Source of the DNA: Bolinopsis microptera
Lineage: Eukaryota > Ctenophora > Tentaculata > Lobata > Bolinopsidae
NCBI RefSeq assembly: GCF_026151205.1
Contig: NC_087083.1
Location: forward strand, 4,070,460 to 4,134,459
Direction of reading: 5' to 3'
DNA length: 64,000 nt
This document shows, piece by piece, positions 1,425-63,900 of the stretch. Position numbers and translations under genes: made by a program. The notes beneath the pieces are model-generated. The model ran no database searches. It worked only from the letters and a program-made list of their open reading frames with translations, and was not told the origin of the DNA. How positions within the stretch are numbered: position 1 is the first letter of the stretch; each line of letters begins with the position of its first letter.

Positions 1425-4400
1425 CTGGGGAAGTAATTAGCATGAAATAAGCAGTTAATTAGCGGTAATTTAGCATACGATTAGCTCACCAAGACACCTG
1501 GTGTTTACATTTTAGCATTACCCACAAACCTGTTATAGAGGACCTCAAGACACCTGGTGTTTACATTTTAGCATTACCCACAAACCTGTTATAGAGGACC
1601 TCAAGACACCTGGTGTTTACATTTTAGCATTACCCACAAACCTGTTATAGAGGACCTCAAGACACCTGGTGTTTACATTTTAGCATTACCCACAAACCTG
1701 TTATAGAGGACCTCAAGACACCTGGTGTTTATATTTTAGCATTACCCACAAACCTGTTATAGAGGACCTCAAGACACCTGGTGTTTACATTTTAGCATTA
1801 CCCACAAACCTGTTATAGAGGACCTCAAGACACCTGATGTTTACATTTTAGCATTACCCACAAACCTGTTGTAGAGGACCTCAAGACACCTGATGTTTAC
1901 ATTTTAGCATTACCCACAAACCTGTTGTAGAGGACCTCAAGACACCTGGTGTTTACATTTTAGCATTACCCACAAACCTGTTATAGAGGACCTCAAGACA
2001 CCTGGTGTTTACATTTTAGCATTACCCACAAACCTGTTGTAGAGGACCTCAAGACACCTGGTGTTTACATTTTAGCATTACCCACAAACCTGTTATAGAG
2101 GACCTCAAGACACCTGGTGTTTATATTTTAGCATTACCCACAAACCTGTTATAGAGGACCTCAAGACACCTGGTGTTTATATTTTAGCATTACCCACAAA
2201 CCTGTTATAGAGGACCTCAAGACACCTGGTGTTTATATTTTAGCATTACCCACAAACCTGTTGTAGAGGACCTCAAGACACATGGTGTTTACATTTTAGC
2301 ATTACCCACAAACCTGTTGTAGAGGACCTCAAGACACCTGGTGTTTACATTTTAGCATTACCCACAAACCTGTTGTAGAGGACCTCAAGACACCTGATGT
2401 TTACATTTTAGCATTACCCACAAACCTGTTGTAGAGGACCTCAAGACACCTGGTGTTTACATTTTAGCATTACCCACAAACCTGTTATAGAGGACCTCAA
2501 GACACCTGGTGTTTACATTTTAGCATTACCCACAAACCTGTTGTAGAGGACCTCAAGACACCTGGTGTTTACATTTTAGCATTACCCACAAACCTGTTAT
2601 AGAGGACCTCAAGACACCTGGTGTTTATATTTTAGCATTACCCACAAACCTGTTATAGAGGACCTCAAGACACATGGTGTTTATATTTTAGCATTACCCA
2701 CAAACCTGTTATAGAGGACCTCAAGACACCTGGTGTTTATATTTTAGCATTACCCACAAACCTGTTATAGAGGACCTCAAGACACATGGTGTTTACATTT
2801 TAGCATTACCCACAAACCTGTTGTAGAGGACCTCAAGACACCTGGTGTTTACATTTTAGCATTACCCACAAACCTGTTGTAGAGGACCTCAAGACACCTG
2901 GTGTTTACATTTTAGCATTACCCACAAACCTGTTATAGAGGACCTCAAGACACCTGGTGTTTATATTTTAGCATTACCCACAAACCTGTTATAGAGGACC
3001 TCAAGACACATGGTGTTTACATTTTAGCATTACCCACAAACCTGTTATAGAGGACCTCAAGACACCTGGTGTTTATATTTTAGCATTACCCACAAACCTG
3101 TTATAGAGGACCTCAAGACACATGGTGTTTACATTTTAGCATTACCCACAAACCTGTTATAGAGGACCTCAAGACACCTGGTGTTTACATTTTAGCATTA
3201 CCCACAAACCTGTTTTAGAGGACCTCAAGACACCTGGTGTTTACATTTTAGCATTACCCACAAACCTGTTGTAGAGGACCTCAAGACACCTGGTGTTTAC
3301 ATTTTAGCATTACCCACAAACCTGTTATAGAGGACCTCAAGACACCTGGTGTTTACATTTTAGCATTACCCACAAACCTGTTATAGAGGACCTCAAGACA
3401 CCTGGTGTTTACATTTTAGCATTACCCACAAACCTGTTGTAGAGGACCTCAAGACACCTGGTGTTTACATTTTAGCATTACCCACAAACCTGTTATAGAG
3501 GACCTCAAGACACCTGGTGTTTACATTTTAGCATTACCCACAAACCTGTTATAGAGGACCTCAAGACACCTGGTGTTTACATTTTAGCATTACCCACAAA
3601 CCTGTTATAGAGGACCTCAAGACACCTGGTGTTTACATTTTAGCATTACCCACAAACCTGTTTTAGAGGACGTCAAGACACCTGGTGTTTACATTTTAGC
3701 ATTACCCACAAACCTGTTATAGAGGACCTCAAGACACCTGGTGTTTACATTTTAGCATTACCCACAAACCTGTTATAGAGGACCTCAAGACACCTGGTGT
3801 TTACATTTTAGCATTACCCACAAACCTGTTATAGAGGACCTCAAGACACCTGGTGTTTACATTTTAGCATTACCCACAAACCTGTTATAGAGGACCTCAA
3901 GACACCTGGTGTTTACATTTTAGCATTACCCACAAACCTGTTTTAGAGGACCTCAAGACACCTGGTGTTTACATTTTAGCATTACCCACAAACCTGTTAT
4001 AGGGGACCTCAAGACACCTGGTGTTTACATTTTAGCATTACCCACAAACCTGTTATAGAGGACCTCAAGACACCTGGTGTTTACATTTTAGCATTACCCA
4101 CAAACCTGTTATAGAGGACCTCAAGACACCTGGTGTTTACATTTTAGCATTACCCACAAACCTGTTATAGAGGACCTCAAGACATCTGGTGTTTACATTT
4201 TAGCATTACCCACAAACCTGTTATAGAGGACCTCAAGACACCTGGTGTTTACATTTTAGCATTACCCACAAACCTGTTATAGAGGACCTCAAGACACCTG
4301 GTGTTTACATTTTAGCATTACCCACAAACCTGTTATAGAGGACCTCAAGACACCTGGTGTTTACATTTTAGCATTACCCACAAACCTGTTATAGAGGACC

Positions 4401-7400
4401 TCAAGACACCTGGTGTTTATATTTTAGCATTACCCACAAACCTGTTATAGAGGACCTCAAGACACCTGGTGTTTATATTTTAGCATTACCCACAAACCTG
4501 TTGTAGAGGACCTCAAGACACCTGGTGTTTACATTTTAGCATTACCCACAAACCTGTTGTAGAGGACCTCAAGACACCTGGTGTTTACATTTTAGCATTA
4601 CCCACAAACCTGTTGTAGAGGACCTCAAGACACCTGGTGTTTACATTTTAGCATTACCCACAAACCTGTTGTAGAGGACCTCAAGACACCTGGTGTTTAC
4701 ATTTTAGCATTACCCACAAACCTGTTATAGAGGACCTCAAGACACCTGGTGTTTACATTTTAGCATTACCCACAAACCTGTTATAGAGGACCTCAAGACA
4801 CCTGGTGTTTACATTTTAGCATTACCCACAAACCTGTTATAGAGGACCTCAAGACACCTGGTGTTTACATTTTAGCATTACCCACAAACCTGTTATAGAG
4901 GACCTCAAGACACCTGGTGTTTACATTTTAGCATTACCCACAAACCTGTTATAGAGGACCTCAAGACACCTGGTGTTTACATTTTAGCATTACCCACAAA
5001 CCTGTTATAGAGGACCTCAAGACACCTGGTGTTTACATTTTAGCATTACCCACAAACCTGTTATAGAGGACCTCAAGACACCTGGTGTTTACATTTTAGC
5101 ATTACCCACAAACCTGTTATAGAGGACCTCAAGACACCTGGTGTTTACATTTTAGCATTACCCACAAACCTGTTATAGAGGACCTCAAGACACCTGGTGT
5201 TTACATTTTAGCATTACCCACAAACCTGTTATAGAGGACCTCAAGACACCTGGTGTTTACATTTTAGCATTACCCACAAACCTGTTATAGAGGACCTCAA
5301 GACACCTGGTGTTTACATTTTAGCATTACCCACAAACCTGTTATAGAGGACCTCAAGACACCTGGTGTTTACATTTTAGCATTACCCACAAACCTGTTAT
5401 AGAGGACCTCAAGACACCTGGTGTTTACATTTTAGCATTACCCACAAACCTGTTATAGAGGACCTCAAGACACCTGGTGTTTACATTTTAGCATTACCCA
5501 CAAACCTGTTATAGAGGACCTCAAGACACCTGGTGTTTACATTTTAGCATTACCCACAAACCTGTTATAGAGGACCTCAAGACACCTGGTGTTTACATTT
5601 TAGCATTACCCACAAACCTGTTATAGAGGACCTCAAGACACCTGGTGTTTACATTTTAGCATTACCCACAAACCTGTTATAGAGGACCTCAAGACACCTG
5701 GTGTTTACATTTTAGCATTACCCACAAACCTGTTATAGAGGACCTCAAGACACCTGGTGTTTACATTTTAGCATTACCCACAAACCTGTTATAGAGGACC
5801 TCAAGACACCTGGTGTTTACATTTTAGCATTACCCACAAACCTGTTATAGAGGACCTCAAGACACCTGGTGTTTACATTTTAGCATTACCCACAAACCTG
5901 TTATAGAGGACCTCAAGACACCTGGTGTTTACATTTTAGCATTACCCACAAACCTGTTATAGAGGACCTCAAGACACCTGGTGTTTACATTTTAGCATTA
6001 CCCACAAACCTGTTATAGAGGACCTCAAGACACCTGGTGTTTACATTTTAGCATTACCCACAAACCTGTTATAGAGGACCTCAAGACACCTGGTGTTTAC
6101 ATTTTAGCATTACCCACAAACCTGTTATAGAGGACCTCAAGACACCTGGTGTTTACATTTTAGCATTACCCACAAACCTGTTGTAGAGGACCTCGAAGAA
6201 CTGTTTATCCTGGAGATAGATGAGCAGCTCTGGAATGCAAAACTCTAGACTCAATCTACTGTTCTCTTTCACTCCTTTCTCAAACAGATCCATTTCAGGA
6301 CGACTACCGGGCATTACCAGCTGCAATACAAAGTTTAAATTATTGTTTAATAGATGTGGATACTGGTGAGGAGGTGAAACACATTTGTTTACTTTAATAG
6401 TGAGCACATGTTCGGCGGGTTGAGGAGGTGAAACACATTTGTTTACATTTTTAGGGTAAGCACATGTTCGGCGGGTTGAAGAGGTGATACACATTTTGTA
6501 TTATAGAAGGCTTGTAACACTTGTAACGCTTTCTTGTTACCCCCCTTTGAAGGCCCCGAATTATTTTCTGAACGAAAGCTCAAAAATAACCGAGAAATCG
6601 ACCTTCTTATTAACTCATTTTGATGACTATTTCTGACCTAAAATTGCACGAAAAATCGATTTAGCTAGGTTTCAGAACCTATAAACACTTCCTTATCCCT
6701 AAAAATTGATGTTTTATAGCTAATACGAGCAACAAGCAACATATGTTTTGATCCTTCGGTTCTACTCATGACCTAGGCAGTTAAGCTGAAACCGACAGAT
6801 CGAGGCAATCCTCACCTTAACTGATAAAACTGGTACTAACACACTTTTCAGATATAAATGTTCTTTGCGATATACGTTTATTGCAGCTTTGCAACTTAGT
6901 GAAGACCAGAGTACGAAAACACACAGCAGGTAAGCAACTCACTTTTTGTGACTGTTCATCACGAACATTCTGATCCTGCAACATATGAACAAGGATATCG
7001 TCTCCTTAACAAATCGAACAGGTACTATCACAATTTCCAGAGCACAGCATGATAACAAATTCAAAAGAAACACAATGAAGGTAGGTTACCAACACCACAA
7101 TATAACAATCATACTAACAACTGAATTAAGTTTATTCTGACGACGGGCAGCCCTGATGTGCTCCGTGATCCTCAACGAGCGACCACTTGTAATAGAGGTG
7201 GTATGTCACGTGACACCGATCCGTCCAATCACAAACAGGAAGAATGACCAGATCGATATCGTGTGTTTACTATCCTTATCTTTATTTGACCCTCTGTTCA
7301 AATTGTTATCTCTATCACATCTCGGCTCGGCAAGGTCCGCGTGCAATATCTGCACCGCGGTAAACACGCCATGATTGTTGTACTTATATAACCGTGCCCA

Positions 7401-10400
7401 TTGCTCACCATTGCCCACCTACAATACAAACTGTTGGGGGGGGGGGGGGGGGGGGGTTGAAGATAAACAACCGATCTTGATAGTGTGTTGGTCGCTCCTC
7501 CAACTGACTGTGATGCTAACTGTTCAATCATGAACGGAACATTAACATATATCCATGAGTGCTCCTTTGCTTAACTTAGACAGTAAGTGTTTGAAAACGG
7601 AATATAGGACACGACTTCACTGACAAGAACTGTATGTTCCAGGAGGAGGCACTTGCAGTGTACAGGAGGACAAGCATGGTTATACATGACAGATTTGAAG
7701 TACTAGTTCAACATGGTGCAGTTCATTTTTACCAGGTTAGACACTCAAAATTTCAATTTGTGCTGTGTAATCAGTCATTGCCGTTTTAAATATGTAAACT
7801 TGGAATCATTCTCACAATTGTAATAAGAGTTTGTGTAACTTTAAATGTTGCACTTGCCCTCAAAGTCAATGGAATTCATTTTGTGTGCGGGGTGTTTATT
7901 TTAGATGAGATACGGAAGTATTGATAAAATCGATAACGGGTAATGGGTGCGCTGTTGAAATGGTTCATTGGACCTGTGGACCCCTCTTTAGTTCGTTTAC
8001 CAGCTGCATTTTATTTCGGATCATGGGTAAGAGCTTTGCTGTATATACTTGTACTGACAGATATTTTAGCTGGTACCGTACATACATATTCGTATCGTAT
8101 TTTTGGCCACATTGACGGTCCTTTACATTTAGGCCCGCAAACTGAAAACGTACTCCATCGTTAACTGATGCTACTGCAAATAACACTGTTTGTCTGTTTA
8201 AATCCATGCTACCACATGATTACTGTGTTCGTGCTTAAAAATTAACTGTGCATGTAGCGACGTGAATTTAATTTCCTCTTAGTCTTAGAATCTAAATATG
8301 CCGTTTTGGTGCACGTAACGTGCGTAATCCGCGTCCGGTTCGTTCAGTGGACCCCTCTTTAGATCGTTTACCAGCTGCATTTTATTTCGGATCATGGGTT
8401 AGAGCTTTGCTGTACACTATTCAAATTTCTATTTAAAATCCTGCATGCAGTAAGCAGTTACTCAGAGCCAGCTAGAGAACGTGTTGTAACGTCACGTAAT
8501 AGTTGAGTGTAGAGTGATTATTCATCGTCCGGTTAGTTAAGAATAAGCGGAATAAAAAGCGAATTAAATTTCAGGAGTTACACTTAACATCCCAGAGGTG
8601 ATGTGGAGCAAGACTCAGTTCACGCCGGAAGAAGTAGCTGCCAGCAGAAAAGTAAGCATCGCCCGCATTCACGTGGAACGCTCCATTGGCTATCTGAAGC
8701 GGTACAAGATTTTGGGAAACAAAGTTGTGGCGAAGATATTGCCTTATCTGAGCGACATCGCATTCGTGTGTGCCCAAATTGTCAACCCTGTTTTTTAAGG
8801 GAGGTGGACAGTGATTTTTTTAAATGACCAGGTCTACCTAAACTTGTTGAGCTTGCTGAATAGGAGGAGCGACCGACACACTATCAAGATCGGTTGTTTA
8901 TCTTCAACCCCCCCCCAACAGTTTGTATTGTACGTGGGCAATGGGTACGGTTATATAAGTACAACAATCACACTATTTCAAGTTCATGACGTTATCATGG
9001 CGTGTTTACCGCAGTGCAGATATTGCACGCGGACCTTACCGAGCCGAGATGTGATAGAGATAACAATTTGAACAGAGGGTCAAATAAAGATAAGGATAGT
9101 AAACACACGATATCGATCTGGTCACTCTTCCTGTTTGTGATTGGACGGATCGGTGTCACGTGACATACCACCTCTATTACAAGTGGTCGCTCGTTGAGGA
9201 TCACGGAGCACATCAGGGCTGCCCGTCGTCAGAATAAACTAAATTCAGTTTTTAGTATGATTGTTATATTGTGGTGTTGGTAACCTACCTTCATTGTGTT
9301 TCTTTTGACTTTGTTATCATGCTGTGCTCTAGAAATTTTGATAGTACCTGTTCGATTTGTTAAGGAGACGATATCCTTGTTCATATATGTTGCATGATCA
9401 GAATGTTCGTGAGGAACAGTCACCAAAAGTGAGTTGCTAACCTGCTGTGTGTTTTCGTACTCTGGTCTTCACTCAAGTTGCAAAGCTGCAATAAACGTAT
9501 CGCAAAGAACATTTATATCTGAGAAGTGTGTTAGTACTAGTTTGATCAGTTAAGGTGAGGATTGCCTCGATCTGTCGGGTTCAGCTTTACTGCCTAGGTC
9601 ATGAGTAGAACCGAAGGATCAAAACATATGTTGCTTGTTGCTCGTATTAGCTATAAAACATCAATTTTTAGGGATAAGGAAGTGTTTATAGGTTCTGAAA
9701 CCTAGCTAAATCGATTTTTCGTGCAATTTTAGGTCAGAAATAGTCATCAAAATGAGTTAATAAGAAGGTCGATTTCTCGGTTATTTTTGAGCTTTCGTTC
9801 AGAAAATAATTCGGGGCCTTCAAAGGGGGGTAACAAGAAAGCGTTACAAGTGTTACAAGCCTTCTATATAATACAAAATGTGTATCACCTCTTCAACCCG
9901 CCGAACATGTGCTTACCCTAAAAATGTAAACAAATGTGTTTCACCTCCTCAACCCGCCGAACATGTGCTCACTATTAAAGTAAACAAATGTGTTTCACCT
10001 CCCCACCAGTATCAACATCTATAATGTATAATAATAATTATTGTTAAATAATGTATAATTTTTATATTATTAAGAAAACTCCAGTAATCGAGACCCTATA
10101 TCTTACGAAGTGTAAGAAAACTTTAAAATTACATCGATTACTCATTGGAATACTACTAACTATCAAAGATGATTCAAGATATTAGTAATTAAATAATTAA
10201 ATAATTAGCTAATTAATTAGCAGACCTCTTGAGACTCGTACATGACACGTTTACTGGCGAATGGGGAGGGTTTGCTCTCGGGCATGTGTAGAATGTTGTC
10301 AAGAGAAGGAGGCGGAGAGGGACTGTGAGCTACAAGGAGGGAGCTGTCCGTTACTTGACTTGTCTTTATTACAATCCTGTAAGTTATTTACTCTTTAACT

Positions 10401-13400
10401 ACTCATGAGTCATGACCATTAACATTAGCTATTTGAAGCTTCTATAACAAGGAACCGTCGTGACATATATATATGTTTCTAGAACCCACTCCCGATTTTG
10501 ACTCAGAGTACCTCAATTTGCTTTTTTACCATCATTAATTAACTGACTTATCTGTTTCTGGGCAAAAATTAATCCAATATGCCAAATTTGTGTTCAGAAA
10601 ATTTCATATTTGAAAATGGGACAGAATTTTAAAAATACAACTTTTCGTTTTGTTAAGCTTTCTGCTGTGGGCTTCCTCCGACCGAAATCAAACTTCCGGC
10701 ACCTCAATCGTGTCATATGGCATATATATAGTTGACTTACTATTTGGTTGCGGGTGAAAAATCAGTCAAACTGTAAAATTTCGGTCCTGCGAATTACATC
10801 TTCAAAAACTGAAAATGGGACAGACATTGGGACAATATGATTTTGCAATTTCATTAAGGATTTTGACTCCCAGTACCTCAATTTGGTTTCATACTATCAT
10901 CAATTAACTAACTAATTGGTTTCTGTGCAAAAATTTCATCCAATCTGTCAAATTTGGGTTCAGAAAATTTCATATTTGAAAATGGGACAGGATTTTTTTA
11001 ACTTTTCGTTTTGTTAAGCTTTCTGCTGTGGGCTTCCTCCGACCGAAATCAAACTTCCAGCACCTCAACTGGTCATTTGCCATCTATAGTTGACTTACTA
11101 AAAAAATCAGTCAAAACTGTAAAATTTCGGTCCTGGAAATTTCATCTCAAAAACTGAAAATGGGACAGACATTGGAACAATATGATTTTGCAATTTTATT
11201 CGGGATTTTGACTCCCAGTACCTCTGCCCCTCTACCCCTCTACCCCTCTGCCACTCTACCCTTCTACCCTTCTACCCCTCTACCCCTCTACCCCTCTACC
11301 CCTCTGCCCCTCTACCCCCTGCCCCTCTACCCCTCTGCCCCTCTGCCCCTCTACCCCTCTACCCCTCTACTCCTCTACCCCTCTACCCCTATACCCCTCT
11401 ACCCCTCTGCCCTCTACCCCTCTATCCCTCTGCCCCTCTACCCCTCTGCCCGTCTACCCCCTGCTCCTCTACCCCTCTGCCCTCTGCCCCTCTACCCTTC
11501 TACCCCTCTACCCCTCTACCCCTCTGCCCCTCTACCCCCTGCCCCTCTACCCCTCTGCCCCTCTACCCCTCTACCCCTCTGCCCCTCCGCCCCTTTACCC
11601 TCTGCCCCTCTACCCCTCTGCCTCTCTGCCCCTCTACCCCTCTGCCCCTCAACCCCCTGCCCCTCTACCCCTCTACCCCTCTACCCCTCTACCCCTCTAC
11701 CCCTCTACCCTCTGCCCCTCTACCCCTCTGCCCCTCTACCCCTCTACCCATCTGACCCTCTACCCCTCTGCCCCTCTACCCCTCTACCCCTCTACCCCTC
11801 TACCCCTCTACCCCTCTACCCCTCTGCCCCTCTGCCTCTCTACCCCTTTACCCCTCTGCCTCTCTGCCCCTCTACCCCTCTGCCCCTCTGCCCCTCTACC
11901 CCTCTACCCCTCTGCCCCTCTACCCCTCTGCCCCTCTGCCCCTTTACCCTCTGCCCTCTGCCCCTCTACCCCTCTACCCCTCTACCCCTCTGCCCGTCTA
12001 CCCCCTGCTCCTCTACCCCTCTGCCCTCTGCCCCTCTACCCTTCTACCCCTCTACCCCTCTACCCCTCTGCCCCTCTACCCCCTGCCCCTCTACCCCTCT
12101 GCCCCTCTACCCCTCTACCCCTCTGCCCCTCCGCCCCTTTACCCTCTGCCCCTCTACCCCTCTGCCTCTCTGCCCCTCTACCCCTCTGCCCCTCAACCCC
12201 CTGCCCCTCTACCCCTCTACCCCTCTACCCCTCTACCCCTCTACCCCTCTACCTCTCTACCCTCTGCCCCTCTACCCCTCTGCCCCTCTACCCCTCTACC
12301 CATCTGACCCTCTACCCCTCTGCCCCTCTACCCCTCTACCCCTCTACCCCTCTACCCCTCTACCCCTCTGCCCCTCTGCCCCTCTACCCCTCTACCCCTC
12401 TGCCTCTCTGCCCCTCTACCCCTCTGCCCCTCTGCCCCTCTACCCCTCTACCCCTCTGCCCCTCTACCCCTCTGCCCCTCTGCCCCTTTACCCTCTGCCC
12501 TCTGCCCCTCTACCCCTCTACCCCTCTACCCCTCTGCCCCTCTGCCCCTCTGTCCCTCTACCCCTCTACCCCTCTACCCCTCTACCCCTCTGCCCCTCTA
12601 CCCCTCTACCCCTCTACCCCACATACCTAGGACGTCTATCTGGTTCCTCCTCTAACGACCCGACTAACAGGAACTGTATGGGGTCACTATCACTGTTCTC
12701 CAGATATTCACCTGGTTAACAATATGTTTAATAATTAACCAATTAACTAATTAACTAATTAATTAATTAACTAATTAACAAATTACCTAATTAACTAATT
12801 AACTAACTTGCGTATTAAATAAACGTGATTTGAGTTAATTATTTTCCACTTAGTGAGTACTTACAGTTTAGTTTAGTGAACTCAGCAGTGAAACTAGTAG
12901 TGAGTACTTACAGTTTAGTTTAGTGAACTCAGCAGTGAAACTAGTAGTGAGTACTTACAGTTTAGTTTAGTGAACTCAGCAGTGAAGCTAGTAGTGAGTA
13001 CTTACAGTTTAGTTTAGTGAACTCAGCAGTGAAACTAGCAGGCGCACTAAGTGTATTGTACTCCGCAGTTGCCTCGTCTATGTGAATAACAACGTAATCA
13101 GCGCGCAGTGCAGGAGCCCACCACGTTCTCTGAGCTGAGGGCCGCATATCCGGGATAGGGAACCTAGCAATTATTAAATATAACCTAGTATATCCGGGAT
13201 AGGGAACCTAGCAATTATTTAATATAACCTAGCATATCCGGGATAGGGAACCTAGCAATTATTTAATATAACCTAGCATATCCGGGATAGGGAACCTAGC
13301 AATTATTTAATATAACCTAGCATATCCGGGATAGGGAACCTAGCAATTATTTAATGTAACCTAGCATATCCGGGATAGGGAACCTAGCAATTATTTAATG

Positions 13401-16400
13401 TAACCTAGCATATCCGGGATAGGGAACCTAGCAATTATTTAATATAACCTAGCATATCCGGGATAGGGAACCTGTAGCAATTATTTAATGTAACCTAGCA
13501 TATCCGGGATAGGGAACCTAGCAATTATTTAATATAACCTAGCATACCCGGGATAGGGAACCTAGCAATTATTTAATGTAACCTAGCATATCCGGGATAG
13601 GGAACCTATCAATTATTTAATATAACCTAGCATATCCGGGATAGGGAACCTGGCAATTATTTAATGTAACCTAGCATATCCGGGATAGGGAACCTAGCAA
13701 TTATTTAATATAACCTAGCATATCCGGGATAGGGAACCTAGCAATTATTAAATATAACCTAGCATATCCGGGATAGGGAACCTAGCAATTATTTAATATA
13801 ACCTAGCATATCCGGGATAGGGAACCTAGCAATTATTTAATATAACCTAGCATATCCGGGATAGGGAACCTAGCAATTATTTAATGTAACCTAGCATATC
13901 CGGGATAGGGAACCTAGCAATTATTTAATGTAACCTAGCATATCCGGGATAGGGAACCTAGCAATTATTTAATATAACCTAGCATATCCGGGATAGGGAA
14001 CCTAGCAATTATTTAATATAACCTAGCATATCCGGGATAGGGAACCTGTAGCAATTATTTAATATAACCTAGCCTATCCGGGATAGGGAACCTAGCAATT
14101 ATTTAATATAACCTAGCATATCCGGGATAGGGAACCTAGCAATTATTTAATATAACCTAGCATATCCGGGATAGGGAACCTAGCAATTATTTAATATAAC
14201 CTAGCATATCCGGGATAAGGAACCTAGCAATTATTTAATATAACCTAGCATATCCGGGATAGGGAACCTAGCAATTATTTAATATAACCTAGCATGTCCG
14301 GGATAGGGAACCTAGCAATTATTTAATATAACCTAGCATATCCGGGATAGGGAACCTAGCAATTATTTAACATAACCTAGCATATCCGGGATAGGGAACC
14401 TAGCAATTATTTAATATAACCTAGTATATCCGGGATAGGGAACCTGTAGCAAATATTTAATGTAACCTAGCATATCCGGGATAGGGAACCTAGCAATTAT
14501 TTAATATAACCTAGCATATCCGGGATAGGGAACCTAGCAATTATTTAATATAACCTAGCATATCCGGGATAGGGAACCTAGCAATTATTTAATATAACCT
14601 AGCATATCCGGGATAGGGAACCTGTAGCAATTATTTAATGTAACCTAGCATATCCGGGATAGGGAACCTAGCAATTATTAAATATAACCTAGTATATCCG
14701 GGATAGGGAACCTGTAGCAAATATTTAATATAACCTAGCATATCCGGGATAAAACTAACCTAAATGTGATTGATATAGAGTTACAGGTACATGTTGATAC
14801 AAATATTTCCTGGTATCTGTCATTCGACCAGTCTTCTCCCATCACTTGCTCGTAAATGTCTTGTCTTACCTGAAGAGACAATTCCCTAATCATACTATAT
14901 ATTAGTTACTAGTTATTAGTTACACTAGTATTATATATTATCATATCAGAAAGTTCAACATTTACCCTGTCTAAAGCTAGTGGAATTCCATATTCAGGAA
15001 AGTGAAGATCCTACCCATGCATTGTAAGATTAATGTGGAATAGAAAGATCGTACCATACTAGCTGTGGGAAGGTGAAGGTCTTACCATACTAGCTGTGGG
15101 AAGGTGAAGATCTTGCCCAGGTACTGTAGGGAGATGCACGGTCCTCTTGGAGTTCTGTGGTTTGTGGAAGACCCCGACTCTGTCTAACATAGTTATATCT
15201 GCTATTATTGACAAACTTCCTAAATCCAGCTGGAAGTTCGTTCTGTACTCTTCGTTCTGAATAAGGGAGACTTGTTACCATAGTTACCATAGTTACCATA
15301 GTTACCATAGTTACCATGACTGATGACAACACTTGTTACCATGACGACACTTATTACATACAGTTCAATAACACTGAGTACACTTTCAACATACATATTA
15401 TAGGCAACATAGATACATATAGGCAGCTGTAACCGAGTAACTAATACCGAGTAACTAATACTTACAGCAGTAGTAGATTTGAAGATAAGATTGAGAGTAG
15501 GTGAAGTAACTAATACTTACAGCAGTAGTAGATTTGAAGATAAGATTGACAGCAGGTGAAGTAACTAATACTTACAGCAGTAGTAGATTTGAAGATAAGA
15601 TTGAGAGCAGGTGAGGTAACTAATACTTACAGCAGTAGTAGATTTGAAGATAAGATTGAGAGCAGGTGAAGTAACTAATACTTACAGCAGTAGTAGATTT
15701 GAAGATAAGATTGAGAGCAGGTGAAGTAACTAATACTTACAGCAGTAGTAGATTTGAAGATAAGATTGAGAGCAGGTGAAGTAACTAATACTTACAGCAG
15801 TAGTAGATTTGAAGATAAGATTGAGAGCAGGTGAAGTAACTAATACTTACAGCAGTAGTAGATTTGAAGATAAGATTGACAGCAGGTGAAGTAACTAATA
15901 CTTACAGCAGTAGTAGATTTGAAGATAAGATTGAGAGTAACTAATACTAGTAGAGGCTCTTACGGGCATTGTCTGCTCGATACGTTAGGGACCCCAGATA
16001 CACCTTACTAGACGTATTTTTGACCGTAGAATCGATTGAAAGTGGTTTCAAGATGATTGGACTGATTGTTCTGGGGTAAAATCGCAAAAAACCGATTTTT
16101 GGGCCAAAAATAGGCCAAAAAACCATGTTTTTTGATATTTTGAGCAAGTTAATTTTGTTGGCATGTCGGCAAAACTTGCATAAAGATAGCTAAAAGACAG
16201 CCGCACAAGATTGTATAAAAATAAAACAAATCCCTCTATTTGTTCTGAGGTAAAAATCCAAAAAAGTGGTAAAAATTTTGACTTTTTTGCTTTAAGTTTG
16301 AATAATTTTTTGCAGTTGTATTAAATCAACCCAAAAATAGTCACATCGTGTTTGCCTAAATTTTTCCTTTCCGAGAAGTACCCACTTCATATACTTAATC

Positions 16401-19400
16401 GAAGTTTGAATATTGTCACTCCGCAAGCGTTTTTGCCAAATTTTCGACGCGCACTACGCGCAAAAGCATTTAGTTGTTATCAATTGGCACCCGCGCGTTC
16501 ATCATAAATTTCAAACAGCTATAACTCAGCGAGATTATGTCCGTTCTAGCTCATATTTTCACACTAAATAGAAAATAATGTGATCTTATTGCTGACAAAA
16601 TATGGATATAATTACTTTATTTGCCTTAGAGTAATAGACTGTCAAAGTTTAAAACGCGCATTGGTATAGCACGTGACTAATAAGGCCAAATTTATACTTC
16701 TTAACATATTATCGATCCTTAGACATCATACTATTGTGTCCAATTAGCGGTTAGGTCTCTAAACTCGTAGCAGAAAACACGTCTTTTTGCCCGTAAGAGC
16801 CTCTACTATACTTACAGCAGTAGTAGATTTGAAGATAAGATTGAGAGCAGGTGAAGTAACTAATACTTACAGCAGTAGTAGATTTGAAGATAAGATTGAG
16901 AGCAGGTGAAGTAACTAATACTTACAGCAGTAGTAGATTTGAAGATAAGATTGACAGCAGGTGAAGTAACTAATACTTACAGCAGTAGTAGATTTGAAGA
17001 TAAGATTGACAGCAGGTGAAGTAACTAATACTTACAGCAGTAGTAGATTTGAAGATAAGATTGAGAGTAACTAATACTAGTAGAGGCTCTTACGGGCATT
17101 GTCTGCTCGATACGTTAGGGACCCCAGATACACCTTACTAGACGTATTTTTGACCGTAGAATCGATTGAAAGTGGTTTCAAGATGATTGGACTGATTGTT
17201 CTGGGGTAAAATCGCAAAAAACCGATTTTTGGGCCAAAAATAGGCCAAAAAACCATGTTTTTTGATATTTTGAGCAAGTTAATTTTGTTGGCATGTCGGC
17301 AAAACTTGCATAAAGATAGCTAAAAGACAGCCGCACAAGATTGTATAAAAATAAAACAAATCCCTCTATTTGTTCTGAGGTAAAAATCCAAAAAAGTGGT
17401 AAAAATTTTGACTTTTTTGCTTTAAGTTTGAATAATTTTTTGCAGTTGTATTAAATCAACCCAAAAATAGTCACATCGTGTTTGCCTAAATTTTTCCTTT
17501 CCGAGAAGTACCCACTTCATATACTTAATCGAAGTTTGAATATTGTCACTCCGCAAGCGTTTTTGCCAAATTTTCGACGCGCACTACGCGCAAAAGCATT
17601 TAGTTGTTATCAATTGGCACCCGCGCGTTCATCATAAATTTCAAACAGCTATAACTCAGCGAGATTATGTCCGTTCTAGCTCATATTTTCACACTAAATA
17701 GAAAATAATGTGATCTTATTGCTGACAAAATATGGATATAATTACTTTATTTGCCTTAGAGTAATAGACTGTCAAAGTTTAAAACGCGCATTGGTATAGC
17801 ACGTGACTAATAAGGCCAAATTTATACTTCTTAACATATTATCGATCCTTAGACATCATACTATTGTGTCCAATTAGCGGTTAGGTCTCTAAACTCGTAG
17901 CAGAAAACACGTCTTTTTGCCCGTAAGAGCCTCTACTATACTTACAGCAGTAGTAGATTTGAAGATAAGATTGACAGCAGGTGAAGTAACTAATACTTAC
18001 AGCAGTAGTAGATTTGAAGATAAGATTGAGAGCAGGTGAAGTAACTAATACTTACAGCAGTAGTAGATTTGAAGATAAGATTGAGAGCAGGTGAAGTAAC
18101 TAATACTTACAGCAGTAGTAGATTTGAAGATAAGATTGAGAGCAGGTGAAGTAACTAATACTTACAGCAGTAGTAGATTTGAAGATAAGATTGAGAGCAG
18201 GTGAAGTAACTAATACTTACAGCAGTAGTAGATTTGAAGATAAGATTGAGAGCAGGTGAAGTAACTAATACTTACAGCAGTAGTAGATTTGAAGATAAGA
18301 TTGAGAGCAGGTGAAGTAACTAATACTTACAGCAGTAGTAGATTTGAAGATAAGATTGAGAGCAGGTGAAGTAACTAATACTTACAGCAGTAGTAGATTT
18401 GAAGATAAGATTGAGAGTAACTAATACTTACAGCAGTAGTAGATTTGAAGATAAGATTGAGAGCAGGTGAAGTAACTAATACTTACAGCAGTAGTAGATT
18501 TGAAGATAAGATTGAGAGCAGGTGAAGTAACTAATACTTACAGCAGTAGTAGATTTGAAGATAAGATTGAGAGCAGGTGAAGTAACTAATACTTACAGCA
18601 GTAGTAGATTTGAAGATAAGATTGACAGCAGGTGAAGTAACTAATACTTACAGCAGTAGTAGATTTGAAGATAAGATTGAGAGCAGGTGAAGTAACTAAT
18701 ACTTACAGCAGTAGTAGATTTGAAGATAAGATTGACAGCAGGTGAAGTAACTAATACTTACAGCAGTAGTAGATTTGAAGATAAGATTGAGAGCAGGTGA
18801 AGTAACTAATACTTACAGCAGTAGTAGATTTGAAGATAAGATTGAGAGCAGGTGAAGTAACTAATACTTACAGCAGTAGTAGATTTGAAGATAAGATTGA
18901 CAGCAGGTGAAGTAACTAATACTTACAGCAGTAGTAGATTTGAAGATAAGATTGAGAGCAGGTGAAGTAACTAATACTTACAGCAGTAGTAGATTTGAAG
19001 ATAAGATTGACAGCAGGTGAAGTAACTAATACTTACAGCAGTAGTAGATTTGAAGATAAGATTGAGAGCAGGTGAAGTAACTAATACTTACAGCAGTAGT
19101 AGATTTGAAGATAAGATTGAGAGTAACTAATACTTACAGCAGTAGTAGATTTGAAGATAAGATTGAGAGTAACTAATACTTACAGCAGTAGTAGATTTGA
19201 AGATAAGATTGAGAGCAGGTGAAGTAACTAATACTTACAGCAGTAGTAGATTTGAAGATAAGATTGACAGCAGGTGAAGTAACTAATACTTACAGCAGTA
19301 GTAGATTTGAAGATAAGATTGAGAGTAACTAATACTTACAGCAGTAGTAGATTTGAAGATAAGATTGAGAGCAGGTGAAGTAACTAATACTTACAGCAGT

Positions 19401-48860: not shown

Positions 48861-48922
48861 GATTATACAACCTGCATTAAATGTGATTAATTATGATGAT
48901 GAAAATCGAAAAATATTGGAGA

Positions 48923-49180
48923 CAGTGGCGTAACAAAGGGCTCCGCTGACCCCGCTGTGCGGGGGTGCGCCGTCTTAGGGGGCCGGGGGGCGCCAAATCG
49001 TCGTTTGAATGTGGGACAATTTCGAAAACTTAACTAAAGTACTAACAAAACTGCCCGTTTTGCTCTAGATATACACTTTTTTAGAGATTTTATCGGCGTA
49101 TCCTATAAAATCACCTAATTTGTTCAATTTTAGGGAGGGGCATGATTAGGGGAGGGGGCGCGTTATATTTGAAGCCATTG
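48923..49180. mobile_element. hAT-like terminal fragment
   Basis: Begins CAGTGGCGTAAC, a common hAT terminal sequence in animals, followed by a GC-rich stretch with GGGGGCCGGGGGGCGCC. No matching opposite end was seen, so it is a partial copy or was cut by the retroelement next to it. Confidence 0.45.
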
Positions 49181-49191
49181 ACTCAAAGTTA

Positions 49192-53794: not shown

Positions 53795-54943
53795 TCAGCG
53801 TTCAAATATAAGTCTTAGATTTTTCACTCCAGGGAAAGGTTTAATTTCAGGATCAAAAGATTCATTGTCAGTTTTTTGCACTCTCTCGAAAGGTTCAGTT
53901 TCTTGTACTTCCTCGAAAGATTCAATTTTACTTTCTTGCACTCCTTCGAAAGGTTTATTTTCATTTTCTTGCATTCCCTCGAAAGATTCAGTTTCTTGCA
54001 CTTCCTTGAAAGGTTCAGTTTCTTGCACTCCCTCGAAAGATTCAATTTTACTTTCTTGCACTCCCTCGAAAGGTTCAGTTTCTTGCATTTTCTCGAAAGA
54101 TTCAGTTTCAGTTTCTTGCACTCCCTCGAAATGTTCAGTTTCTTGCACTCTCTCGAAAGATTGAGTTTCTTGCATTTTCTCGAAAGATTCAGTTTCATTT
54201 TCTTGCACTCCCTCAAAATGTTCATTTTCTTGCACTCCCTCAAAATCTTCAATTGTTGCGTTGGTAATGTCCATACTAACATGTCTCCTGAATGCTTTTT
54301 GCAGCACAATCGTCGCACTACACCTCGATCGTACCCTGGTTGTTTTGACGGTCACTATAGAAAGCATTGGGAAGGCTGTTGTAAAGTTTTCAGACATGAG
54401 CGATTTAATCATATCAAACTCATCTGCATTGCTATTAGGACCGAGAGTTCGCGAGATAAGAGCCTGAAGAACGTCAATACAATGGGTCCTATCATAAGGA
54501 TAAAGTGGAATATCCAACTGCAACACTTCCTCCTCTGTAACACCGGGTATCCCTAGAGGTTGTGATAGCTGTCTCACTAGGTCTGGCAACACTCTCACGT
54601 TTAGAAATCCTGTCGCTTTCGGATCAAAGACCTTCCATTTCTCGTAAAAGAGATTGATGTCATCTACGTCTACTCCGACCTCGTCATCTTGTTGAGCAAT
54701 GCTGAAATTGTCTAGGATGACAGCAATATACATGTTTACCATGATCAAGAAAGCGATGAGAATGAAGGAAGAAATGTAGACAATAGCAAAACCCTTGGAC
54801 CCACAGTCTCCGGGAGAGTCTGCGGTAGAAACACTGCAGTCTGGCGGGGAGACCATGAGGGCATCTAGCACATCATTCCAGCCAGCTGATGTGGCCAACC
54901 TTATCATTAGGATTATTGCAGCAGGTGTTCGTTCAAAGTTCAT
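53795..54943 (-). CDS. Nav exon K: domain IV pore, S6, C-terminal tail
   Basis: Follows ATTTCACAG. Encodes the pore LATSAGWNDVLDALM with the filter Ala, S6 SSFILIAFLIMVNMYIAVIL, and an EF-hand-like segment INLFYEKWKVFDPKATGF. Then an IQ-like site CSATIVLQKAFRRHV and a tail of 9-11-residue acidic repeats of the form FEGVQETE. Stop TGA at 53795. Confidence 0.95.
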   Translation of the reverse strand: MNFERTPAAIILMIRLATSAGWNDVLDALMVSPPDCSVSTADSPGDCGSKGFAIVYISSFILIAFLIMVNMYIAVILDNFSIAQQDDEVGVDVDDINLFYEKWKVFDPKATGFLNVRVLPDLVRQLSQPLGIPGVTEEEVLQLDIPLYPYDRTHCIDVLQALISRTLGPNSNADEFDMIKSLMSENFTTAFPMLSIVTVKTTRVRSRCSATIVLQKAFRRHVSMDITNATIEDFEGVQENEHFEGVQENETESFEKMQETQSFERVQETEHFEGVQETETESFEKMQETEPFEGVQESKIESFEGVQETEPFKEVQETESFEGMQENENKPFEGVQESKIESFEEVQETEPFERVQKTDNESFDPEIKPFPGVKNLRLIFER

Positions 54944-57900: not shown

Positions 57901-60900
57901 ACACTTGTGAAACACTTGTGAAACACTTGTGAAACACTTGTGAAACACTTGTGAAACACTTGTGAAACACTTGTGAAACACTTGTGAAACACTTGTGAAA
58001 CACTTGCGAAACACTTGCGAAACACTTGCGAAACACTTGCGAAACACTTGTGAAACACTTGTGAAACACTTGTGAAACACTTGTGAAACACTTGTGAAAC
58101 ACTTGTGAAACACTTGCGAAACACTTGCGAAACACTTGCGAAACACTTGTGAAACACTTGTGAAACACTTGTGAAACACTTGTGAAACACTTGTCAAACA
58201 CTTGTGAAACACTTGTGAAACACTTGTGAAACACTTGTGAAACACTTGTGAAACACTTGTGAAACACTTGTGAAACACTTGTGAAACACTTGTGAAACAC
58301 TTGTGAAACACTTGTGAAACACTTGTGAAACACTTGTGAAACACTTGTGAAACACTTGTGAAACACTTGTGAAACACTTGTGAAACACTTGTGAAACACT
58401 TGTGAAACACTTGTGAAACACTTGCGAAACACTTGTGAAACACTTGCGAAACACTTGCGAAACACTTGTGAAACACTTGTGAAACACTTGTGAAACACTT
58501 GTGAAACACTTGTGAAACACTTGTGAAACACTTGTGAAACACTTGCGAAACACTTGTGAAACACTTGTGAAACACTTGTGAAACACTTGCGAAACACTTG
58601 TGAAACACTTGTGAAACACTTGTGAAACACTTGCGAAACACTTGTGAAACACTTGCGAAACACTTGTGAAACACTTGCGAAACACTTGTGAAACACTTGC
58701 GAAACACTTGTGAAACACTTGTGAAACACTTGTGAAACACTTGCGAAACACTTGCGAAACACTTGTGAAACACTTGCGAAACACTTGCGAAACACTTGTG
58801 AAACACTTGCGAAACACTTGTGAAACACTTGTGAAACACTTGTGAAACACTTGCGAAACACTTGTGAAACACTTGTGAAACACTTGTGAAACACTTGTCA
58901 AACACTTGTGAAACACTTGTGAAACACTTGTGAAACACTTGTGAAACACTTGTGAAACACTTGTGAAACACTTGTGAAACACTTGTGAAACACTTGCGAA
59001 ACACTTGTGAAACACTTGTGAAACACTTGTGAAACACTTGTGAAACACTTGCGAAACACTTGTGAAACACTTGTGAAACACTTGTGAAACACTTGTGAAA
59101 CACTTGTGAAACACTTGTGAAACACTTGTGAAACACTTGTCAAACACTTGTGAAACACTTGTGAAACACTTGTGAAACACTTGCGAAACACTTGTGAAAC
59201 ACTTGCGAAACACTTGTGAAACACTTGCGAAACACTTGTGAAACACTTGCGAAACACTTGTGAAACACTTGCGAAACACTTGTGAAACACTTGTGAAACA
59301 CTTGTGAAACACTTGCGAAACACTTGTGAAACACTTGCGAAACACTTGTGAAACACTTGCGAAACACTTGTGAAACACTTGTGAAACACTTGCGAAACAC
59401 TTGTGAAACACTTGTGAAACACTTGCGAAACACTTGTGAAACACTTGTGAAACACTTGCGAAACACTTGTGAAACACTTGTGAAACACTCGCGAAACACT
59501 TGCGAAACACTTGTGAAACACTTGTGAAACACTTGTCAAACACTCATTCATTTGTGTGCACTCAGGGGTCAGAAGACTCAAATGTATAACTAACTAATCT
59601 ACCACATTTTCTACTGACCTCTTTTTTCAGTCTGTTGAAGTTATCGATAACAACTCCAACCAGCAGTTTTAACGTGAAGAAGGAACCAATAAATATGAAC
59701 ACCAAAAAGAACACGTATGCTTTAAAGTTGTGCTCAAAAGATGGCTGTTTATCTATGCCCACGGAGTCGATGGCATCATCCATAACCTCCATCCAGCCCT
59801 CAAATGTAGCCTGGAAATGAAAGGATGGTCGTATATAATATACATATAATTATATTGATAACCTCCATCCAGCCCTCAAATGTAGCCTGGAAATGAAAGG
59901 ATGGTCGTTACACGATATTTAAACATATAATTATATTGAGAATGAAGCTTCCAAGTAAGAATTAAGGGTTTACTAACCACTTGGTACAAAGCAACGAATG
60001 CCATTATTGTGTTATCAAAGTTAATTTTTGAATTCTGCCACGCGTCTTGTCCAAATTGTGCTATACACATAGTCTTGTTCTTGATTTCAGTACTCTTATT
60101 ATCCAATGGTCCATCATCTCCAACACACTTGTAAAACGTGTTTCCAAAGAACTGGACTCCCAATATACTGAAAATGTTCGTTTATTTTGGTTATCAAATA
60201 AAAATCCCATAAATCTCAATCAGAAATTTGTGGAAAGTTGCCAAAACTGTGTTCGGATTTGTTATCTAGCTTTTAAAAGCTTACAAGTGACTGCAATTCA
60301 AAATAGAGCTATACTTATAGCTGAATATACATTTTGCAAGTTATCGAACCCAAAACAAACCAGAAAACAAGCCAAAGGACCAAGCAAACCAAAGACACAT
60401 TTCCAAATGAGGGAATTGAGGAAATCAGGGCGTTTACTGAAAGTCTCATCCCTTTCCAGCGAGATATGGCCCTCAAGGGTCTTAACGCTCTGAAAGACCT
60501 GATAACTTTCAAACCACCAATGTTGGCATTACTCGCTACAGTGCTGACTATTGATATCTGCGGAGTTGTAAAGTATGGGAAAATAGTATTTATTAGAGCG
60601 TTTCGGTACAAGTTAAACTTTAAACAAAGTATTCGTGTTACGGAGCAAGGATTTGAAATGGCTTTTAGCCGCTTAAAATATTTCCATCCATTTTGCAATC
60701 ACAACATTATAATCAACAAAATAAATGTAGTATTGTGTATGTGCGTATATTAGATATGAGGAATGTTATGGTATTAATATGATGTTTTAGTGTACCGGAT
60801 GAAATGTATTTCACAATTATTATAATCGTCAACAAGTTGAATAACTTACCGTGACAACAAGTGAATCAATCCAGTTCCAGGCGGACTCGAAGTAATTTAT

Positions 60901-63900
60901 CACGCCGAATGTAAAGAGCTTGAGGCACATCTCAACAGTAAAGACTACAACATAAAACAAATTGAGAGTATCAACTATCCGCTTCAGAGAAGGGGATGTC
61001 TCCAACGAGGAGTCTTCAAAAGCGAGGGTAACACTAGAAGCCATAATCAAGATAAGGATAGTCCAATCGAAGACTTTGTGTTGCACAATCCGTCTAGTGG
61101 CTTCCCGGAACATGGAGCAACAAACACAGAGAGGTCTACAGCAGATACTACAGCACTGGCAACAGTCGTCACAGCTGTAGGGGTCGTTACCCTCGTGTTC
61201 GTCCACGTCTATCATATTCATGTCTAGTGAAGAGAGCAGTACATGAGAAGGGGGGGGGGGGGGGGGGGGCATAAAATAGGGGAGGCATAAAATAGGGGGG
61301 GGGGGGCATAAAATAGGGGGGGGGGGGGGGGGGTGGGGGCAATAAAATAGGGGGGGGGGGGGGGCATAAAATAGGGGGTATAAAATTAAAATAGGTTTGA
61401 TAATAATAATCTTACATTCAGATCCCTCGCTGTACTCAGAAGATGCGCCGTTACCGTGGTTACCACAGTTACCGTGGTTACCACAGTTACCAGGGTTATC
61501 ACTGTTACCAGGGTTATCACTGTTACCAGGGTTTCGGCGATGTCTGCACGGGGTCTTCATGCGCTCAAGAGCAGTCAGATCTAGTGTTGACATTCTTATC
61601 TCTGAAGCTAATTTGTGTTTACTTTTTGTTATGTTAAACAGTTTCTTTTTTAAGAAAGCGGTCAGAGATACCTCTTTTTCAGCAACTTCCGCCGCAGTTT
61701 CTTTCTTCTCATTGATTGATTCCGACCCAAATGCGTTGAGCAGAAGCGCCAAGAAGAGATTGAGAAGAAGGAAGTTGCCCAGAACCAAAGCCCCCAAGTA
61801 AAACAGAACAGGCCACATCTGGCCCCGAGTAACTTGGAGAGTCTCCCAAAGTAGCTCAATCCATTCGCCACACAGTATACGGAACACTAAGACAAAAGAA
61901 TGGTAGAAGTCCTGGTAATTCCAGCGCGGCATGTTACCATAGCTGTCCGGGTGGAGGGCCTCGTTGTTGAAGAAGTTTTCATATTCCTTCTTGAATAGGT
62001 TCATCCCAATTACGGAGACAGTGAATATTACAACTCCCAATATTATGGATAAATACATTAAACCTGATATTGACTCAGCTATGATGTCGATCAGCGCCTT
62101 CATAGTATTCCACGACTTTGCTAGTCGAAATACCCGCAGCTGAAAGAGAGTTTGAGCTTGTTAATATGTATTGCGCTGATACATAAAGTTGAGTAAATAT
62201 ATTAGTAAATAAATGTGGAAACGTTACCCATATTTACCCCACCAGTATCCGTAATTCATATTTATAAGTTATCACGTGAAAGTCTTTTGTTTTAGTTGTT
62301 ATTAATCAAATATTTACGAAAAATTGAACAGCACGATTAAGCAACAATTAGGTCGTTAAAATTAACTTAATTTACAACTTATCTTAATCTATAAATTATC
62401 TTCATTTTAAACAATACTCCATTTAATCTACAAATTAACTCAATTTAAAACAAAACTTAACTTCATTTACAAATTAACTTAATTAATGATAATTGATTTT
62501 ACTTACAAATTAACTTAATTAATGATAATTAGTTTTACTTACAAATTAATTCAATTAACAACATACCACTCTGAGAGACCGCAAGCCGGAAACATTGAAA
62601 GAAGCATTTTCAAGATTTAATTCAACTAGTGACACAATCACGATTATCGCATCGAAAATGTTCCATTTCGTTTTCCAAAACTCTGTTGGAAGTAAACCAA
62701 CTAGTTTTATAACCAATTCTGTTGTAAAGATCCATGTTAGACACTGAAAATAGATCCTAATTATTTGATACTAAAAACCCAAGTAGAAATACATGCCTAA
62801 AATAATATATCAAATAAAATTCTTGATTGAAAAATATTGAATCCCTGATTTGTATTTTATAAATCAGATGGTAACAATATCAATGATTATATGTAATACA
62901 TATAACAAAATAAAATTTATTTAATTTACATCGTTAACTTTAGAGAGGACCTCTCCCATCTCCTCACTGATACCATGGGAGTCCAGGGCTAGACAAAGTG
63001 TATTCAGAACAATACAGCCCATCACTCCGTTCTCAAACCAGAAACTATAAATAAAACTCCTTATCTGACTGCGGAACCAGGTCCACACGTCACACAATAT
63101 TTCGTAGTATGTTTCTTTTGTTGGGTCCTTTACCTTGAAGAGAGCAGTACATGAGGGGGGGGGGGGGGGGCATAAAATAGGGGGGGGGGGGGGGGGGCAT
63201 AAAATATCACGTCACCCAATATCTCGTAGTATGTTTCTTTTGTTGGGTCCTTTATCTTGGGACCCCAGGCTATTATATTTATGTTCATAATCATATAGAT
63301 AATAATAATCATATAATAAAATAATTCATAATCATATATATAGCCGAATAGAGATTCGGCGGAATGACAGCGCCAGTAAATAGGTCCTATACCTTGACCT
63401 CCGGGTACACTCCAAACATCTTGTACCACAGGAACTGTTTAGAGCAGCAGATCTTGAGAGCAGCCAGGAAGCCCCGTTTGGGGGGTCTCCGTGTGTCACG
63501 TGGTGTAAATACTGTGTTCTGATTGGTTGTGTGGGGTCTCTTGGGCAACCCGTAAGTGTAGTCTAGGTAATAGGCAGAGTGACTCAGGTGGGGGGAGTCG
63601 TTGTTGAACGATTGTGTAACGGTGTAACTTTCGCGGGGAGTGAGGGGAGTGAGGGGCCATGACGGGTGGTTTTCGTCTTCTTTGTTGGAATCAACGTCCG
63701 ACTTAGTTGAACATGCCTGCGGTAATAATTTATTGATTTGAGATCACCAATATAGGACCAGTTTACCATTATGTAAACAATGATGTTATCAAAATTAACT
63801 GAAGGACTATCATGGTCCACGTGTAAATCATTACCTTTTCTTTTTGTGGAGCCAAGACTTCCTGCTCATAAGAAATAAAAACAACCGCCAGGACCAGGTT

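Follow-up and report, generated by a model that had tools for sequence, protein, structure and literature searches.

Introns of four neighbouring genes of Bolinopsis microptera (ATG2, TRPT1, Nav and UNC45) contain repeats seeded from the splice junctions of those same genes. Blocks of roughly 20-140 bp straddling a splice site, in most cases the donor, are present in 2 to about 171 copies within the adjacent intron. Each array begins at the exon it derives from, and it is the copy nearest the exon that the annotated protein uses. We consider it fairly probable (roughly 60%) that these are junction-spanning, 'mirage'-type tandem duplications that were born independently, tolerated in the intron and then expanded, with donors favoured. 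The observation had been predicted from a 64,000-nucleotide stretch of DNA, termed here the window, and it is confirmed; the interpretation attached to it is, as a whole, partly supported.

Gene models

The exon model of ATG2 is based on the annotated NCBI B. microptera protein P0121, whose spliced alignment to the locus gave 45 exons and 44 GT-AG introns with all residues identical, and our exon numbering follows this protein. The Mnemiopsis protein P0122 could be aligned over the full length of ATG2, and PF13329 gave five ATG2 exon matches. Regular splicing may be kept: the exon-proximal sites are those used in the annotated protein, and this protein is conserved in Mnemiopsis. For Nav, we used a spliced alignment to P0241/P0242/P0244, leaving exons above 67289 and below 54277 out of the counts. 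Exons "C" and "I" of the original prediction would correspond to acceptors 59810 and 63133 if lettering runs from the low-coordinate end and a doubtful last exon is omitted. The TRPT1 and UNC45 models were guided by human protein sequences. The first predicted exon of TRPT1 and its last three were excluded as junction sources, as were UNC45 junctions without a secure model, which kept nine introns in the 20-mer test and seven in the BLAST tests. TRPT1 "exon 4" was equated with donor 45514 by numbering the secure exons from the low-coordinate end, a guessed match. Counts over four genes refer to ATG2, TRPT1, Nav and UNC45. Arrays with a period below 9 were left out, and the best-scoring row was retained where TRF rows overlapped.

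Junction-seeded repeats in the window

Table 1. Junction-seeded repeats and the ATG2 gene, in window positions.
Feature	Positions	Strand	Details
ATG2 gene, exons 1-22 of 45	1315..42289	-	remainder left of window; P0121 spliced alignment, 1956/1956 aa
ATG2 exon 2, donor-seeded array	40005..40359	-	50 bp x 7.1; 41 exon bp within array
ATG2 exon 5, donor-seeded array	36036..36583	-	46 bp x 11.9; 33 exon bp
ATG2 intron 5, detached exon-5 units	32024..34220	-	two blocks (33615-34220, 32024-32351)
ATG2 exon 6, diverged single copy	31694..31769	-	first ~70 bp of exon + acceptor (by eye), upstream of true acceptor 31629
ATG2 exon 8, donor-seeded array	30818..30879	-	23 bp x 2.7; 12 exon bp
ATG2 exon 12, donor-seeded array	27921..28144	-	56 bp x 4.0; 32 exon bp
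ATG2 exon 14, two-copy donor duplication	26473..26669	-	65-bp block flanking 67 bp of GGTAACCA-like repeats
ATG2 exon 15, donor-seeded arrays	15450..20180	-	55 bp; three blocks (17938-20180, 16808-17067, 15450-15937)
ATG2 exon 16, donor-seeded duplication	15045..15114	-	31 bp x 2.3; 29 exon bp
ATG2 exon 18, acceptor-seeded array	13144..14751	-	44 bp x 36.3; 20 exon bp
ATG2 exon 18, donor-seeded array	12851..13038	-	47 bp x 4.0; 33 exon bp
ATG2 exon 21, donor-seeded array	1490..6199	-	56 bp x 84.1; 22 exon bp
TRPT1 donor 45514, two copies	45251..45535	-	138-bp spacing, 8-bp repeats between; 22 exon bp
Nav acceptor 59810, two-copy duplication	59780..59910	-	41-bp match; 29 exon bp
Nav acceptor 63133, two-copy duplication	63086..63259	-	52-bp match; 48 exon bp; copies flank 70 bp of filler

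Nine ATG2 donors had been named in the prediction (exons 2, 5, 8, 12, 14, 15, 16, 18 and 21); at each, the junction 20-mer recurs in the next intron with at most 3 mismatches, and all nine were recovered by BLAST too. Likewise, both tests found a junction copy of the TRPT1 donor 45514 in the adjacent intron, and such copies are present for the acceptors of ATG2 exon 18 (an array) and exon 6 (one diverged upstream copy) and for both Nav acceptors. In the exon-6 case the BLAST match begins 17 bp inside the exon, and the copied CTAG acceptor was recognized by eye. The term minisatellite holds for the arrays but not for the ATG2 exon-14 donor, the exon-6 acceptor and both Nav acceptors, which are two-copy cases, some with filler, or for the TRPT1 donor repeat with its 2.1 copies. 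That nearly every minisatellite adjoining an exon holds the exon's end was too strong a statement, since 15/23 array sides in ATG2 do so (period 20-120, at least 2.3 copies, overlapping an exon or at most 20 bp away), with at least 6 exon bp in 13/18 donor sides and 2/5 acceptor sides. Counter-examples are the ATG2 arrays at 40492-42222, 28667-29600 and 37050-39388 (3 exon bp), Nav 55829-59544 and TRPT1 44189-44417.

Junction-seeded repeats make up nearly all of several ATG2 introns. The exon-21 donor array occupies 4,688 of the 4,753 bp of intron 21 and the exon-18 acceptor array 1,588 of the 1,596 bp of intron 17, while the exon-15 array blocks are set apart by a repeated segment of ~870 bp. 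Of the 95,178 bp of ATG2 intron sequence, 27,319 (28.7%) are junction-seeded, and introns here therefore grow by copying their own splice sites. The exon-23 array, the longest, contributes 9,575 bp of this sum, the share being 18.6% without it; TRF assigns it 7 exon bp, with mismatches among them, and it gave no match at 36 bits.

Seams were analysed in 18 cases, of which 4 gave no alignment. Filler measured 2 bp (TT) at UNC45 acceptor 145630, 41 bp at UNC45 donor 147594, 38 bp at the ATG2 exon-44 acceptor and 70 bp at Nav acceptor 63133, and the microhomology CAGC was seen by eye at the ATG2 exon 2 seam.

Repeat units are locally derived

The 208 array units, collected from a 264-kb region that contains the window and from five random loci, could be grouped into 114 families, and exon-edge queries against non-adjacent introns of the same gene matched in 0 of ~4,198 pairs at a threshold of at least 32 bits. 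The events are therefore local and independent, which upholds the claim of a recurrent process rather than a single spreading element. In the same pairs and families, similar copies in unrelated introns, as introner-like or other mobile intron elements would leave, were not found. A common recombination motif was rejected as well, as no 6- or 7-mer dominates across the 114 unit families; the largest excesses, for words shared by 6 or more families, were AGTAGG (6 vs 1.1 expected), ACTAGG (6 vs 1.2) and CTACTA (8 vs 2.0), and GGTAAC occurred in 8 vs 2.6 expected.

Donors exceed expectation under most nulls

The donor excess over expectation ranged from about 1.2- to 11-fold by choice of null, and two variants were not significant. 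Among 41 TRF arrays in ATG2, 13 overlap a donor (1.14 expected, P 3e-11) and two an acceptor (1.14 expected, P 0.32). Capping introns at 300 bp gave 5.47 expected donor overlaps (P 1.6e-3), and admitting periods of 9-500 and at least 1.9 copies under this cap gave 14 vs 11.2 expected (P 0.20). Within ATG2 introns of collapsed length up to 700, 11/21 arrays lie at donors vs 2.55 expected (P 6e-6). None of the three Nav TRF arrays overlaps a donor.

Junction 20-mers recurred for 21/72 donors in the four genes (7.1 expected, P 4e-6) and for 7/72 acceptors; without ATG2, four donors stood against 2.15 expected (P 0.16). Exon-edge BLAST at no less than 36 bits in the adjacent intron recovered 19/70 donors and 9/70 acceptors, and 27/28 best matches span the junction. 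Self-BLAST in the four genes marked 20/70 donors and 7/70 acceptors (Fisher P 0.009), with an interior duplicated fraction of 15.3% (P 3.5e-3), or of 12.7% when junction-seeded repeats were removed (donor excess P 3e-4). The proposal that duplication starts at exon-intron borders in general is thus not supported as worded, since donors alone lie above expectation. Restricted to introns up to 2 kb, self-BLAST found 15/58 donors vs 4.9% (P 9e-8); for introns now up to 700 bp, a choice by which the expanded introns are dropped, it found 6/41 vs 10.2% (P 0.23). ATG2 alone gave 16/44 donors vs 13.8% (P 1.5e-4), and the genes outside ATG2 gave a trend (4/26 vs 6.2%, P 0.07; Nav 1/16).

We also scanned the units for donors independently of homology. 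The signal was clear in ATG2 at score 6. Outside ATG2, 12/53 units stood against 8.1 expected at this score, with 28/200 controls as high, and score 8 gave no excess there; dinucleotide shuffles of all 99 units, run at score 8 alone, yielded 8.3 vs 10 observed. In random 50-kb stretches from five other contigs, and in 20 kb more on one of them (C5), no secure multi-exon gene overlapping arrays was met. One array on C5 (36 bp x 12.1, CAG|GTTAGT at a predicted 124-bp exon) was a donor candidate but was set aside as lacking homolog evidence; the weak matches obtained are probably repeat-driven.

Donor-seeded arrays are longer than interior ones (n=15, median 355 bp vs n=37, median 114 bp, P 0.014), and interior arrays show no excess of donors on the sense strand (5/51 sense, 8/51 antisense), in comparisons for which some less secure UNC45 exons were also used. 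Position therefore matters more to the effect than the donor motif does.

Possible origin of the repeats

According to the reading we favour, each repeat would start with an independent small duplication across an exon end, by break repair or template switching, whose seam would carry short microhomology or filler. The exon and its first donor would remain unaltered and the additional copies would end up in the intron, which is why the duplication could be tolerated; unequal exchange or slippage may then provide growth. Acceptors added upstream of an exon would interfere with splicing more readily, which would explain why they are fewer than donors; the excess of donors over the intron interior would further require a higher birth or expansion rate at exon ends.

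The strongest alternative is that donors are true mutational hot spots, where duplications would be set off by breaks coupled to transcription or splicing (paused polymerase or R-loops at exon ends). Donors above the interior in most nulls, the longer donor arrays with position rather than motif counting, and the duplications with filler all speak for it. We nevertheless regard it as rather doubtful, since the exon share of units is, by eye, roughly even, so that breakpoints are not at one place, and since the donor excess is significant only when ATG2 is included. Hot spots of this kind amount to a sharper version of the favoured explanation, and both are compatible.

Alternatively, minisatellites might arise anywhere and cover some splice sites by chance, with ATG2 as a picked extreme. 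The two non-significant null variants, the mere trend in the other genes, acceptors at chance level and the homology-free scan outside ATG2 would fit; such an account is unlikely, however, given the 16/44 donors and 13/41 arrays of ATG2.

Even less probable is that selection retains donor-bearing arrays, for example as spare U1 sites that safeguard splicing or keep transcripts from being polyadenylated prematurely in long introns. The GT is intact in 385/386 scored copies of ten arrays (one exon-23 array copy excluded), but homogenization alone predicts near-perfect copies; the donor core columns are less often variable than others (3/54 vs 42/217, P 0.014), weak evidence that depends on the exon-23 array. 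The interior arrays with no sense-donor excess argue against selection, as do the mirage donors, which by eye are not visibly weaker than other donors in the score table. Compensation for weak donors was discarded on the same visual comparison.

DNA repair that uses splicing intermediates (lariat or pre-mRNA) as its template, part of the original interpretation, is very improbable: nothing but the splice-site location favours it, the donor units examined are contiguous exon-intron DNA, and those sequences that were read through showed no exon-exon joins, branch-site ends or poly(A). An assembly artefact is equally hard to credit, although near-identical long arrays are difficult to assemble, because copies differ by substitutions, distinct units occur at many loci and the two-copy cases with filler are short.

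Independent junction-spanning duplication followed by expansion, our preferred reading, would, if general, tie splicing signals to the place of minisatellite birth, offer a testable way for introns to lengthen and perhaps to be gained, and show that 'mirages' reach beyond amphioxus to a deep-branching animal lineage. We suggest only tentatively that, in ctenophores, breaks coupled to transcription or splicing make 5' splice sites the favoured places for minisatellites to arise, and that this is one of the main ways in which introns grow across the genome. The donor bias provides a handle to tell mutational origin from selection.

Comparison with known systems

The amphioxus mirages named in the prediction are genuine. 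In the portions of the two reports drawn on here (PMC3087553, PMC3902484), they are described in Adh3, the globins BflGb6/BflGb9, TnC and PGBD5, with splice signals in many copies and regular splicing. As in amphioxus, tandem repeats cross exon-intron boundaries with unit lengths varying by locus; in B. microptera the unit includes an exon end plus splice signal, its length and sequence are locus-specific, and both 5' and 3' boundaries are involved (the exon-edge BLAST counts above). A further trait of mirage minisatellites is that their length is unstable, even somatically. The differences lie in the ctenophore phylum, the 16/44 introns affected in one gene and up to 171 copies; a donor bias is not among the features reported in those portions.

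Human and plant loci offer further parallels, as far as the parts of the sources used here describe them. The 31-bp VNTR of human CBS, c.1444_1467+7(16_21) (PMC2630376), comprises, in our reading of the name, an exon end and the first 7 intron bases and is thus a donor-spanning array, but one confined to a single locus in human, where it has 16-21 repeats. The CBS 844ins68 duplicates the intron 7/exon 8 junction, one copy being spliced out, and resembles our two-copy acceptors, although it is one event without an array (PMC2630376). Human segmental duplications likewise carry boundary minisatellites, which reportedly can give rise to new introns, but these were detected as paralog differences, some altering transcripts (PMC2812944). 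In the intron gain of potato RdRp, tandem duplication also supplies splice sites; there a new intron arises, whereas in B. microptera existing introns lengthen (PMC4974935). Relative to the amphioxus mirages and the CBS VNTR, the host, the scale and the donor bias are new.

Junction duplications in the gene models

Spliced alignment of the NCBI Bolinopsis microptera ATG2 protein (P0121) to the locus reproduced 1956 of 1956 residues in 45 exons separated by GT-AG introns, and the exons are backed by Mnemiopsis ATG2 (P0122), which could be aligned over the whole length. The exon models of TRPT1 and UNC45 were guided by human protein sequences, which serve as approximate guides. The Nav gene (54277-64000 and the right flank to 67289) encodes a four-domain sodium channel paralogous to the annotated B. 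microptera Nav channel P0242, which is encoded on another contig (23,028,209 bp) and is identical at 1154 of 1614 positions in the spliced alignment.

We searched for the 20-mer across each junction in the next intron, allowing up to three mismatches. This 20-mer recurred for 17 of the 44 ATG2 donors; nine of these lie within the window and are exactly the nine that the original prediction had listed independently. The 14 arrays overlapping donors extend into the exon by 6 to 43 bases. This exon content was directly visible in self-comparison at the period given by Tandem Repeats Finder (TRF), weakly at exon 23 and with the exception of exons 39 and 43, where the TRF period covers several shorter repeats. 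The TRPT1 donor at 45514 (22 exon bases, spacing 138), the acceptors of ATG2 exons 6 and 18 and the Nav acceptors at 59810 and 63133 also proved to be copied in the adjacent intron as proposed, several of the listed cases being duplications with two copies. The assertion that nearly every exon-adjacent array is seeded from a junction held for 15 of 23 array sides in ATG2 and was overstated. UNC45 also carries such duplications (see table); the phenomenon therefore extends beyond a single gene.

Positions of ATG2, UNC45 and the UNC45 junction duplications, relative to the window start
Feature	Position	Strand	Copies	Remarks
ATG2	42289 to ~58.8 kb left of window start	minus		spliced alignment of P0121
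UNC45	~145-154 kb from window start
UNC45 acceptor	145630		2
UNC45 donor array	146341		8
UNC45 donor	147594		2
UNC45 acceptor	147853		2
UNC45 donor	151704		2	found by 20-mer test; no self-BLAST match (exon edge against introns) at 36 bits

A candidate donor array on another chromosome (locus L034, 7842-8278, minus strand; 36 bp x 12), found without homolog support, has a strong donor in its copies and lies 3' of a predicted exon of 124 bp that encodes a hydrophobic segment.

Repeats with a match to a unit of any array that overlaps a junction occupied 27,319 of 95,178 intronic bp in ATG2, in 16 of 44 introns, and made up 93-99.5% of introns 17, 21, 23 and 40. Intron 23, whose unit has few exon bases, contributed 9,575 bp of this total. 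Arrays of any kind with a period of at least 20 covered 42,008 intronic bp. By comparison, TRF is reported to have marked 13% of the genome in the ctenophore Hormiphora californensis (PMC8527503).

Other repeats and an open frame were also observed. ATG2 intron 14 holds two tandem arrays of a 337-bp unit (21115-22328 and 22334-25496), by eye in opposite orientation. The exon-15 array is interrupted at 15950-17930 by a segment of ~870 bp, present twice and probably a mobile element, translated fragments of which were also found on another contig (L035). At 55829-59544, about 338 copies of an 11-bp unit end beside a Nav acceptor (exon start 55827) without including exon bases. An open frame of 748 aa (49150-51396) matched the reverse-transcriptase family RVT_1 weakly, at 25.9 bits and thus below the cut-off of 29.6.

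Independent origin

Our sequence comparisons indicate that the junction repeats are independent births. The 208 array units fell into 114 families, and exon-edge queries had zero matches in non-adjacent introns of their own gene, in agreement with the predicted recurrent process rather than one spreading element. The low-copy cases may indicate the starting form of arrays: a perfect 63-bp block with 2 bp of filler at UNC45 acceptor 145630, 65-bp blocks flanking 67 bp of filler at ATG2 exon 14, and 52-bp blocks flanking 70 bp of filler at Nav acceptor 63133. Two different Nav introns (ends 61223-61245 and 63133-63153) share a C-rich segment containing CATGTACTGCTCTCTTCA, immediately upstream of the acceptor. 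Apart from the copy in the 63133 filler, CATGTACTGCTCTCTTCA is matched in the window (up to two mismatches) at a single place, before the other of these Nav acceptors, 1.9 kb away, which suggests that the filler is a templated insertion. Break repair or template switching could first create a small duplication at a junction, and unequal exchange could then raise the copy number. In the left flank, between about -56362 and -55865 counted from the window start, the unit at ATG2 exon 42 includes an inverted donor copy (TTATTTACCTGGTAAATAA), in contrast to the direct duplications at other sites.

Donor excess and its possible basis

Donor overlap was ~1.2 to 11 times expectation, depending on the choice of null. 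For ATG2, the strongest null gave 13 of 41 arrays against 1.14 expected, and a fairer one, limited to introns with a collapsed length up to 700 bp, gave 11 of 21 against 2.55. With a junction-centred null over all four genes, 20 of 70 donors were duplicated, as opposed to 12.7% of interior positions. Two null variants yielded non-significant donor excesses (P 0.20 and P 0.23), and acceptors were significantly above expectation under none of the nulls. Outside ATG2 (Nav, TRPT1 and UNC45), 4 of 26 donors were duplicated against 6.2% (P 0.07; 20-mer test, P 0.16). Thus, these results establish a donor excess for ATG2 and show a trend in the other three genes.

Selection for donor-bearing arrays could be considered as the cause. 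However, interior arrays contained no excess of sense donors (5/51 against 8/51 antisense), and donor-seeded arrays were longer than interior ones (median 355 vs 114 bp). Both observations weigh against such selection and favour position, rather than a sequence motif, behind the donor effect. The difference between donors and acceptors would be the expected outcome of tolerance. The donor excess over interior positions would then require locally raised birth or expansion.

Among the papers listed in a limited literature check, none described junction-spanning minisatellites in ctenophores. Repeats of the same kind are the "mirages" of amphioxus (PMC3087553, PMC3902484) and the human CBS VNTR c.1444_1467+7 (PMC2630376).
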